64,000 nucleotides of DNA from Halococcus salsus (lineage in GTDB: Archaea > Halobacteriota > Halobacteria > Halobacteriales > Halococcaceae). Shown piece by piece: positions 55,801 through 59,543 of the stretch. The notes beneath the pieces were generated by a model. It was not told where the DNA came from. It did not search any database and was given only the letters and a program-made list of their open reading frames with translations. Location: positions 124,001 through 188,000 of the forward strand of contig NZ_JAAAJC010000004.1 of assembly GCF_009900715.1 (NCBI RefSeq), written 5' to 3'. The stretch's first letter is position 1. Every line of letters starts with the position of its first letter. Position numbers and translations under genes: made by a program.

Positions 55801-56567
55801 CCGGCGAGCCGAACACGGAAAGTCGAGCCGCGACGAAAGCGGCGGTGCTCAAACTCGGCGGGAGCGTCATCACGGACAAGTCCAACCCCGAAACCCTCGA
55901 TACGGAGACACTTGACCGCGCCGCGGACGCGGTGGCGGCGTTCGAGGGGGAGCTCGTCGTGGTCCACGGCGGCGGGAGCTTCGGCCACCACCACGCCAGC
56001 GAGCACGGGATCACGACGACGGCCGGGAGTCACGATGCGACGGGCGCACGCGCCGTCCACGACGCGATGCGACGGCTCAACGACGCGGTGCTCGACGCGC
56101 TCCGCGAATGCGGCGTCCCGGCGCTCCCGCTCCACCCCCTCTCGGCGGCCACGCGCGACGATTCCGGGGAACTCTCGCTGGCGACCGACGTCGTCGCAAG
56201 GATGCTCGGCGAGGGGTTCGTCCCCGTGGTCCAGGCCGACGTGGTCACTCATGTGGGTCGAGGTGTGACGATCCTGAGCGGCGACGAACTGGTGGTCGTG
56301 CTCGCGAGGGCGCTCGATGCCGACCGAGTGGGCGTCTGTTCCGGCGTGCCGGGTGTGTTCGACACCGACGGGGCGGTCATCGACCGCATCGACTCCTTCG
56401 AGGACGTGCGGGCGGCGCTCGGTGGGAGCGACGCGACCGACGTCACCGGGGGAATGAGCGCGAAGGTCGAGGCGCTGCTCGGGCTCGACGCGCCGGCCTG
56501 GGTGTTCGGCCTCGACGACCTCCCCCGATTCCTCGACGGCGAGTCCGCAGGGACGCGAATCGGGTAG
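55797..56567 (+). CDS. Isopentenyl phosphate kinase
   Basis: The 256-residue amino acid kinase-fold protein has AVLKLGGSVITDKSNPET, the substrate VVHGGGSFGHHHASEHG loop (His near the active site) and DVTGGMSAKVEALL near the end. It phosphorylates isopentenyl phosphate to IPP, the last step of the archaeal mevalonate variant. The ATG (55797) overlaps the mevalonate kinase stop. It has the adjacent RNase J and polyprenyl synthase genes downstream. Confidence 0.95.
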   Translation: MTGEPNTESRAATKAAVLKLGGSVITDKSNPETLDTETLDRAADAVAAFEGELVVVHGGGSFGHHHASEHGITTTAGSHDATGARAVHDAMRRLNDAVLDALRECGVPALPLHPLSAATRDDSGELSLATDVVARMLGEGFVPVVQADVVTHVGRGVTILSGDELVVVLARALDADRVGVCSGVPGVFDTDGAVIDRIDSFEDVRAALGGSDATDVTGGMSAKVEALLGLDAPAWVFGLDDLPRFLDGESAGTRIG

Positions 56568-56646
56568 TCGATCCGACCGGAAAGCGACCACGGGACCCGG
56601 ATCGAGCAGGAAGAACTATGCCCTCACTCGGTGTTTCGTTCGGTGT

Positions 56647-56985
56647 ATGTCAAGTGTCAACATTACTACCGCCATCAAGTACGGTTTCATCGTGGTCGCG
56701 TACTTCGTCGGAATCCTGATCCTCGGGGGGATCGTCGCTGCGATCGGGTTCGCGCTCGTCGGTGTCGGCGGGAGCGGGTTCGGGGATGCCAGCGGGGGGG
56801 TCGGCGCGGCTGGCGGCGTCCTCGCGCTGGTCGGCATCGTCGTCGGCATCCTCGGCTACGTGATCATCATCGGGGCGGCGTTCGGCATCCAGTACAAGAT
56901 CATCTCCGACGGGGTGGCGCGCGGCATCGAAACCGCCGGTGGGGTGACGGGTGGACGCGCGACCGACGCCGACGAACGGACGTAA
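56647..56985 (+). CDS. Small membrane protein with Gly-rich loop
   Basis: The 112-residue protein has two hydrophobic helices (about 12-40 and 58-85) separated by a Gly-rich loop (GVGGSGFGDASGGVG). The C-terminus is short and acidic. Family not recognised. It lies in the same direction between isopentenyl phosphate kinase and RNase J, with an own leader of about 80 bases. Confidence 0.7.
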   Translation: MSSVNITTAIKYGFIVVAYFVGILILGGIVAAIGFALVGVGGSGFGDASGGVGAAGGVLALVGIVVGILGYVIIIGAAFGIQYKIISDGVARGIETAGGVTGGRATDADERT

Positions 56986-57018
56986 TCGGGCATATCGTTC
57001 CGGGAGCGAGCCACGGGG

Positions 57019-57080
57019 TTTATACCACCCCCGTCCCGTAGCAACGCACATCCGAGAGACCGCCCCGAGCATCGGGGCGG
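57019..57080 (+). promoter_or_regulatory. TATA box and leader hairpin of the RNase J gene
   Basis: TTTATAC at 57019-57025 predicts a start site near 57046-57050. A perfect nine-pair stem, CCGCCCCGA with TCGGGGCGG (57060-57068 and 57072-57080) around the three-base loop GCA, lies in the leader about 70 bases before the ATG at 57151. Confidence 0.55.
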
Positions 57081-57150
57081 CCGGGCGGGTCGCGTGACCT
57101 CGCCAGCCGGCGGAACATCCCTGCTCGCGGGCGGCTCTGGAGTACTAACC

Positions 57151-58497
57151 ATGGAAATCGATATTGCAACCATCGGCGGCTACGAAGAGGTCGGCCGACA
57201 GATGACCGCCGTTCGGGCGGGCGACGACATCGTCGTCTTCGACATGGGTCTCAACCTCTCGAAGGTCCTGATCCACGACAACGTCGAAACCGAACGAATG
57301 CACAGTCTCGACCTGATCGACATGGGCGCGATCCCCGACGACCGGGTCATGTCCGACCTGGATGGGGAAGTCCAGGCCATCGTCCCGACCCACGGCCACC
57401 TCGACCACATCGGGGCCATCTCGAAGCTCGCCCACCGCTACGACGCGCCCGTGGTGGCGACGCCGTTCACGATCGAACTCGTCAAACAGCAGATCGAGAG
57501 CGAGGAGAAGTTCGGGGTCGGCAACGACCTCGTCAAGATGGACCCGGGCGAGTCGATGGAGATCGGCAACGGGCTCGATCTCGAGTTCGTCAACGTCACC
57601 CACTCGATCATCGACGCGATCAACCCCGTGCTCCACACCCCCGAGGGATCGATCATCTACGGGCTCGACAAGCGCCTCGACCACACCCCCGTGATCGGCG
57701 ACCCGATCGACATGGACCGCTTCCGCGAGATCGGTCGCGAGGGCGAGGGCGTGCTCTGCTACATCGAGGACTGCACCAACGCCGGCCGCAAGGGCCGAAC
57801 CCCGAGCGAGCAGCTCGCTCGTGAGGAGGTCCGTGACGTGCTCTACAGCATGGAGGACTACAAGGGCGGCATCGTCGCCACCACCTTCTCCAGTCAGATC
57901 GCGCGGGTCAAGTCCATCGTGGAGTTCGCGAAGGACATCGGCCGTCAGCCCGTCCTCCTCGGTCGCTCGATGGAGAAATATTCGGGGACTGCCGAACGCC
58001 TCGACTTCGTCGACTTCCCCGACGACCTCGGGATGTTCGGTCACCGGCAGTCGGTCGACCGGACCTTCAAGCGGATCATGAACGAGGGCAAGGAGAACTT
58101 CCTGCCGATCGTCACGGGCCACCAGGGCGAGCCGCGCGCGATGCTCACCCGGATGGGTCGGGGCGAGACGCCCTACCAGCTCGACGAGGGTGACAAAGTG
58201 GTCTTCTCGGCACGGGTCATTCCCGAGCCGACGAACGAGGGCCAGCGCTACCAATCCGAGCAGTTGCTCCGAATGCAGGGCGCACGCATCTTCGACGACG
58301 TCCACGTTTCGGGCCACATGTCTCAGGAGGGCCACTACACGATGCTCGACGCCATCCAGCCCCAGCACGTGATCCCGGCCCACAACGACCTCGAACACCT
58401 CGCGCGCTACATCGACCTCGCCGAGAGCCAGGGCTACCGGATGGGTCGGGACCTCCACGCGACGCGCAACGGCAACGTCATCTCGCTGGTCGAATGA
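57151..58497 (+). CDS. Ribonuclease J (metallo-beta-lactamase exoribonuclease)
   Basis: The 448-residue MBL/beta-CASP protein has the HxHxDH motif in [13 protein letters not shown] near residue 80, [13 protein letters not shown], and the beta-CASP closing [15 protein letters not shown] with IPAHNDL near the end. Archaeal RNase J is a 5'-to-3' exoribonuclease. The ATG at 57151 opens [14 protein letters not shown], the conserved start; an in-frame GTG at 57094 would add a Gly-rich 19-residue extension. Its stop overlaps the polyprenyl synthase start (ATGA), an unusual but conserved coupling to isoprenoid genes. Confidence 0.94.
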
Positions 58498-59543
58498 GCG
58501 CTTCGGGGGCGGCGGTCGTCGAGGCGGTCGCGGCACGACGGGAGCGCGTCAACGCGTCGCTCTCGGAGTACCTCCCGATAGGCGAGCCCGAGCGCCTCTA
58601 CCGCGCCTCGCGTCACCTGCTCGACGCCGGCGGCAAGCGCCTCCGGCCCGCGGTCACGCTGCTCGTGGCCGAGGCGCTCACCGACACCGAACCGCTCGGT
58701 GCGGACTACCAGTCGTTCCCGACGCTCGGCGGGTCGGGGCCCGACGAGATAGACCTCATGGCGGCCGCGGTGAGCATCGAGACGATCCAGTCCTTCACCC
58801 TGATCCACGACGACATCATGGACGAGGACGACCTCCGGCGCGGGGTGCCCTCCGTCCACAGCGCGTTCGACACCGAGACCGCGATCCTCGCTGGCGACAC
58901 GCTCTACGCGAAAGCCTTCGAGTTCATGCTCGCCACCGGCGCGCCACCCGAGCGCACCGTGCGCGCACTCTCGGAGCTCGCCAGGACCTGTACCCGGATC
59001 TGTGAGGGGCAGTCGCTCGACGTCGCCTTCGAGCACCGCGACGACGTCACGACCGACGAGTACATCACGATGGTCGAGCAGAAGACGGCCGTTCTCTACG
59101 CCGCCGCGGCCCGCATCCCGGCGATCCTGCTCGGCGCGGACGACGAGACGACCGAGGCGCTCCGCCAGTACGGGCTCGACATCGGCCGGGCGTTCCAGAT
59201 CCGCGACGACGTGCTCGATCTCACTGTTCCGAGCGAGCAGCTCGGCAAGCAGCGCGGCAGCGACCTCGTCGAGGGCAAGCGCACCGCCGTCACGCTCCAC
59301 GCCAGCGAGCACGGCGTCGACCTCGACGACCTCGTGGTGGCCGAGACGCCCGCGGCGGTCACCGAGGAGGAGGTCGACGCCGCGGTCGCCGAACTCGACG
59401 CCGCGGGCAGCATCGAGTACGCCCGCACCCTCAGCCGCGACCTCGTCGACCGCGGGAAGTCCCACCTCGAAGTCCTCCCCGACAACGAGGCCCGCCGCCT
59501 GCTCGCTGGCGTCGCGGAGTACCTGATCGAGCGCGGGTATTAG
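58494..59543 (+). CDS. Polyprenyl diphosphate synthase (geranylgeranyl/farnesyl type)
   Basis: The 349-residue trans-prenyl synthase has both aspartate motifs, [11 protein letters not shown] near 105 and QIRDDVLDL near 240, and the [14 protein letters not shown] start of the family. It builds C15-C20 allylic diphosphates for archaeal lipids and probably feeds the GGGP synthase at 14170-14874. It overlaps RNase J by four bases and ends the mvk-ipk-RNase J-prenyl synthase cluster. Confidence 0.94.

Follow-up and report, generated by a model that had tools for sequence, protein, structure and literature searches.

A conserved, structured leader RNA predicted to act in cis on the RNase J gene of haloarchaea

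The RNase J gene of Halococcus salsus lies in the window (the whole stretch of DNA that was analysed, 64,000 nucleotides) behind a TATA box whose position raises a simple question: does the mRNA of a major ribonuclease carry a long leader, and might that leader set the level of the enzyme? The original prediction had proposed that the leader is about 100 nt long and contains a perfect stem of nine pairs with a three-base loop, and had suggested that RNase J could control its own mRNA through it. In Haloferax volcanii aRNase J is essential and the exosome is absent (PMC10470531, as excerpted), so tight dosage control of this enzyme would make sense; according to the same excerpt the enzyme of H. 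volcanii acts as an endonuclease, while 5'-3' exonuclease activity is given for other species.

The features on which the argument draws are as follows.

57019–57024, + strand: TATA box (TTTATA) of the RNase J promoter, from the sequence and its kept spacing to P1
57048–57050, + strand: predicted transcription start, a few nt 5' of P1, inferred from the TATA spacing
57049–57084, + strand: match of covariance model R1, leader 5' domain (38.8 bits, E 1.8e-5)
57051–57058, + strand: 5' strand of helix P1 (UCCGAGAG; CCGAG in all relatives of this type), from alignment and folds
57060–57068, + strand: 5' arm of P2, pairing with 57072–57080 (local hairpin) or 57122–57134 (long-range), from complementarity, covariation and folds
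57072–57080, + strand: 3' arm of P2 in the local hairpin, from sequence and covariation
57085–57103, + strand: P3 hairpin (GCGGGUC / GACCUCGC) of this genus, present in folds of both states
57122–57134, + strand: distal strand (UGCUCGCGGGCGG), rival partner for the P2 5' arm, from complementarity, covariation and folds
57135–57141, + strand: 3' strand of P1 (CUCUGGA here; CUCGG in most relatives), from alignment and folds
57151–58497, + strand: RNase J, a beta-CASP ribonuclease (TIGR00649, 425.5 bits, cut-off 400)
58494–59543, + strand: idsA-type geranylfarnesyl diphosphate synthase; its gene overlaps the stop of RNase J

Judged by position, RNase J and idsA are in one operon. Genes for mevalonate kinase, isopentenyl phosphate kinase and a small protein of 112 aa are found 5' of RNase J; the last of these (56647–56985), between isopentenyl phosphate kinase and the RNase J promoter, encodes a predicted membrane protein that gave no match in NCBIfam, and genes resembling it also stand 5' of RNase J in some other genera. 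The window's genome falls into one genus with nine others, and among the 80 loci kept Halococcus morrhuae is its closest named relative. A second RNase J copy (L011, G002:C33:22400-23740), 84% identical and on a separate contig, occurs in one genome of the genus and is either a paralogue or a contamination.

Promoter, conservation and start codon

The predicted stem is indeed present, at 57060–57080 (CCGCCCCGA / TCGGGGCGG, loop GCA). Perfect stems of at least nine pairs with loops of 3–8 nt occur seven times in the window, against 7.4 in first-order Markov sequences, and those with a loop of exactly 3 nt occur twice, against 1.2 expected; since this is the level of chance in a GC-rich window, the hairpin alone proves nothing. 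We take it to be real because it is conserved as helix P2 of a structured leader. Over the ten genomes of the genus the leader (P1 to ATG) is 84% identical and P2 94%, with covariation of the stem beyond the genus, as had been asked of orthologous leaders. The TATA-box stretch is 86% identical within the genus, third codon positions of RNase J are 78% identical, and identity 5' of the TATA box is 51–54% (51% in the 100 nt further upstream). The 115-nt stretch also folds better than all 200 of its dinucleotide shuffles (z -3.07). A long, conserved and structured leader on RNase J is thus strongly supported, and judging from these sequence comparisons it is very probably an RNA that acts in cis on this gene. 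An intrinsic terminator was ruled out, the hairpin being followed by CCGGGCGGGTCGCG without a T run.

A TATA-like box lies 31–33 nt 5' of P1 (first paired base) in 57 of the 60 leaders of the window's type, and the usual archaeal distance from TATA box to transcription start puts the 5' end within a few nt of P1. The proposed length of about 100 nt agrees with this spacing, which also makes a start site downstream of the hairpin unlikely. The distance from P1 to the ATG is 99–103 nt within the genus and 99–274 nt across leaders of the window's type; within the genus it changes by steps that are not divisible by three. The reading frame is thus not maintained, and the GTG at 57094, which sits at the P3 loop and had been considered as the real start, is no conserved start codon. 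The ATG and the start of the RNase J protein, by contrast, are common to the relatives read, across the order.

A GGAG at 57139–57142 overlaps the 3' strand of P1. A GGAG or GGAGG near the AUG, partly within P1, is found in only 39 of the 60 leaders, and H. volcanii reportedly does without the use of Shine-Dalgarno sequences at 5' UTRs (title of Kramer 2014, cited in PMC12482152), so the hiding of such a sequence is no safe mechanism.

Two helices that compete for one arm

Leaders of the window's type (type C) are found in the window's family and in Haloarculaceae-like families, and share one order of elements: (A/U)CCGAG, then the P2 hairpin ACGGYCGYCC...GGRCGRCCGGC, then a terminal CUCGG that forms P1 with CCGAG and lies 13–16 nt 5' of the ATG in most of them (17–29 nt in four, L096–L099). 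The set of 60 was obtained from 64 distinct picks by removing L038, L163, L178 and L182, which lack CUC(N)GG close to the ATG and were taken for false CCGAG picks; L012 and L013, identical to L006 and L010, were left out throughout.

In 33 sequences of the 5' domain, P2 is paired in 85.8% of cells, and CG stands against UA at two of its pairs (24:9 and 29:4). None of 500 shuffles reaches the observed covariation score or the observed number of doubly changed cells, while the count of pairs changed on both sides is not above the shuffles (267/500 as high) and that of further pair types is below them (496/500 as high). The covariance model R1 finds one clear match in the window's genome (runner-up at 17.6 bits). 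Across 293 genomes of the order it has 83 places in 81 genomes at E<=0.01, 75 of which lie 61–221 nt upstream of RNase J on its strand, and at E<=1e-4 every one of the 67 is just upstream of RNase J; the remaining eight places have E values no better than 2e-4, and one of these places is in a genome that yielded no RNase J. Since many of the genomes are near kin of the training loci, the tally speaks for specificity more than for independent discovery.

The 5' arm of P2 has a second possible partner. In the window its CCGCCCCGAGCA is complementary to UGCUCG(C)GGGCGG (57122–57134), the 3' end of which lies about 16 nt before the start codon, and the same long-range complementarity recurs with different letters in other type C genera. 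In order to separate pairing from mere GC richness, duplex energies of a leader's own segments were compared with those of segments swapped in from other genomes, over 60 distinct leaders. For the long-range pairing own segments were better by 2.9 kcal/mol and for the local hairpin by 2.34 kcal/mol, with 0 of 5000 permutations as good in either case; a control segment from mid-leader gave +0.08 (3121 of 5000 as good). The test was repeated with one leader per cluster to lower relatedness: with 29 leaders (<75% identity) the permutations as good numbered 0 for the long-range pairing, 0 for the local hairpin and 6436 for the control out of 10000, and with 17 leaders (<65% identity) 0, 20 and 6312. 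A third helix, in which the P2 3' arm would have a dedicated mid-leader partner, was not supported (537/5000). Since both supported helices use the same 5' arm of P2, they are mutually exclusive, and from this arrangement we consider a two-state switch likely.

A second leader type and its spread

Leaders of another kind (type N) precede RNase J in Natrialbaceae, Haloferacaceae-like and other families. They read CCCGCGGGYAAGUGCG ... CGCAUAGCGGG, followed by a hairpin with the apex CG(n)GC-UGYAAGAC-GCCG and next by UUUCAGUG... before the ATG. Model R2 matches 118 of the 293 genomes, once each, and these add to the genomes with R1; among the matches listed with an RNase J position, 81 of 81 lie 61–181 nt upstream, a count that covers 81 of the 118 places. 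Going by the two lists of matches, no genome is both among the 75 that have R1 beside RNase J and among the 118 that have R2, so at least 193 of 293 carry a structured leader. The alignment behind model R2 leaves out L035 and L086, which MAFFT had shifted. In alignment A4 the stem at the P2 tip is variable, and its pairing is mostly retained. The outer stem was tested on all 46 distinct rows from 62 matches; 252 of its 368 cells are paired, where shuffles give 223 (0/2000 as high).

From the roughly 100 genomes with neither an R1 nor an R2 match, 28 were chosen for reading. The type N apex was found by regular expression in 13 of their main RNase J copies, and a further nine have CCCGCGG near the 5' end, as judged by eye; the other six (L183–L188) have neither. 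Three of these (L186–L188, with 65–66% RNase J protein identity, families f9 and f11) show no TATA-led leader of such a kind, which suggests that the leader arose within the order or was lost there.

Both types appear to share one layout. A further 89 leaders, mostly of type N but including 12 of the CCGAG type, were folded; in 83 of them the last 115 nt pair with six or more of the 24 nt at the 5' end, and by these predicted folds type N has the same ground plan as type C. Each type is strongly conserved within itself; the conserved cores differ between them. A search of 20 loci against Rfam gave no match at gathering score, and the window's 56500–57400 gave a single weak match, below gathering score and on the opposite strand. 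Neither leader type is in Rfam, and by descent the leader is not a member of a known Rfam family. It is apparently an undescribed and widespread family of leader RNA with the anatomy of a switch.

Several smaller observations concern type N. The apex loop UGYAAGA (e.g. L014:2921-2932) amounts to a GNRA-like tetraloop within an 8-nt loop, with GUAA, GCAA, GAAA, GUGA and GAGA as variants, and may be a docking site for another part of the leader or for a protein. In a Haloplanus MAG (L083:2812-2926) the hairpin module GACCGACGTGCCGTGAG...CCGG is tandemly duplicated. The idea that the apex mimics another RNA was dropped: its 14-mer GCTGYAAGAYGCCG occurs 11 times in 12 genomes, ten of them upstream of RNase J and the lone exception at G209:C3, and it has no occurrence in the two genomes of the window's genus that were searched. 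A UAGC/GCUA helix in type N was likewise set aside as not general.

A predicted switch on RNase J, its alternatives and its relatives

We propose that 57050–57150 gives the RNase J mRNA a leader RNA that regulates in cis and can take either of two mutually exclusive folds. The probability that it is a switch acting in cis on RNase J we put at about 0.65, irrespective of the signal. The local hairpin would form first during transcription and leave both the start region and the 5' end open, a form that would be ON yet attackable from the 5' end. In the second fold the P2 arm extends P1 into a rod that joins the predicted 5' end to the sequence before the AUG; this would shut the start region and the 5' end together, leaving the mRNA OFF but shielded. 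The signal, as the least certain step, would be RNase J activity itself, in a negative feedback. With RNase J plentiful, the open form would be cut, or eaten from its free 5' end, and the closed, little-translated form would survive; with RNase J scarce, the open form would be translated. On the sequence evidence the RNase J gene is probably controlled at the RNA level and perhaps by its own product. Self-control is a plausible hypothesis, compatible in our analysis with everything seen, and RNase J, alone or with partners, is a candidate signal to which we would give somewhat less than even odds. That a whole family of RNA switches extends through most haloarchaea, in which the fold sets both translation and attack by RNase J and no dedicated regulator is needed, is a more doubtful proposal. 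Should it be true, the two unlike leader types would be two solutions of one circuit or a deep divergence within it.

The same anatomy could answer to something other than RNase J. Two exclusive helices beside a start codon are the usual layout of riboswitches and protein-responsive leaders, and the signal could then be a metabolite, an ion or another RNA-binding protein. This layout and the near-invariant type N apex, enclosed by a covarying outer stem, would suit such a leader; a single ligand, however, would be expected to keep one pocket, and the conserved cores differ between the two types, strong matches occur only at RNase J genes, and yet another form is found at RNase J paralogues. 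We regard a signal of this kind as unlikely.

The predicted folds raise the alternative that the leader is a constitutive stabiliser, a rod that blocks 5'-3' decay without any switch, with the local hairpin as a functionless intermediate of folding. Of the 60 type C leaders, 57 have the long-range helix in their minimum-energy fold and none has the local hairpin; forcing the latter costs a median of 10.2 kcal/mol and comes within 5 kcal in only eight of 60, all at 37 C and standard salt, energies that may not hold in molar KCl. Given how far these predictions favour the rod, the local hairpin may exist only briefly. The pairing of the 5' end with the 3' part of the leader in 83 of the 89 further leaders agrees with a mere stabiliser too, as does the beginning of P1 right at the predicted 5' end. 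Such an element would nevertheless have no need for near-invariant unpaired stretches such as the UGYAAGAC loop of type N, and the local hairpin covaries by itself, which a pure intermediate need not do. A rod without a switch therefore seems improbable to us.

A third possibility is that the leader controls idsA, with RNase J as a passenger in the operon, and idsA does stand 3' of RNase J in nearly all of the loci that were read. Paralogous copies of RNase J bear on this directly. Six of them (L011, L069, L082, L160, L189 and L190) have no idsA match behind them, and all, L190 in part, carry their own TATA-like box and a long leader with AACCGA near its 5' end (ACCGA in L011) and, in all but L190, UCGG shortly 5' of the ATG. 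The leader thus goes with RNase J and not with idsA; it also abuts the start of RNase J rather than that of idsA. We consider control of idsA very improbable, and it is strongly supported that the leader belongs with RNase J and not with the isoprenoid genes beside it. In the roughly 200 nt upstream of the second RNase J copies L011, L069, L082, L160 and L189 the leaders start with (A)ACCGAAA(C/G/T)ACGCG and end with UGAUCGG before the ATG, and form a third type.

Finally, a leader peptide or N-terminal extension from the GTG at 57094, or a separate small RNA, is scarcely credible: the frame 5' of the ATG is open in the window, but it is broken by indels within the genus, its GTG falls at a hairpin loop and the ATG is conserved across the order, and nothing speaks for a separate small RNA, although a processed leader fragment could exist.

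Switching between two folds on RNase J remains our preferred reading, and it has relatives among known systems. The excerpts of PMC10989929 describe feedback by RNase E in Escherichia coli that acts in cis via the rne leader, and a ribonuclease that limits its own mRNA via the rne 5' UTR in Synechocystis; RNase Y of Bacillus subtilis likewise limits its own mRNA, rny (PMC10303841, in excerpt). Like E. coli rne, the haloarchaeal RNase J mRNA codes for a major ribonuclease and has a long structured 5' UTR; its leader differs from that of rne in being archaeal, in preceding a beta-CASP RNase J, in having no Rfam match and in its two-state, long-range helix near the start codon. If the feedback proposal holds, the likeness to the rne leader would be one in the manner of working. 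Synechocystis rne and B. subtilis rny are cut at a U-rich site or within the reading frame, and no site of that sort was identified at RNase J.

The leader resembles translational riboswitches in its two predicted, mutually exclusive helices near the start codon, and unlike them it comes with no candidate ligand and with no single conserved pocket apparent across both leader types. Closer to home, archaeal ribosomal-protein leaders (eL15, and S15 in Halobacteria) are covarying, cis-regulatory and found by comparison (PMC7247131, in excerpt). The RNase J leader is likewise a covarying archaeal leader found by comparison, but it precedes RNase J and not a ribosomal protein gene, and no Rfam match was obtained for it in 20 loci. 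According to the excerpted part of a survey of start sites in Haloferax, structured leaders are not typical of haloarchaea (PMC4983044), a conclusion with which the RNase J leader contrasts. We found no report of an archaeal RNase J that is controlled through its own leader in the open-licence PMC literature, which was represented mostly by titles and the starts of abstracts. The locus offers a genetically tractable case of how haloarchaea set the level of a main RNA decay enzyme, and a candidate case of RNA switching in molar salt.

A further observation touches on the partners of RNase J. The predicted Halobacteria S15 leader covers rpsO and recJ (PMC7247131, Table 1, in excerpt), and in H. 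volcanii aRNase J is complexed with RecJ3/4 (PMC10470531, in excerpt); through S15/recJ and RecJ3/4-aRNase J, leaders may link the making of ribosomes with RNA decay.
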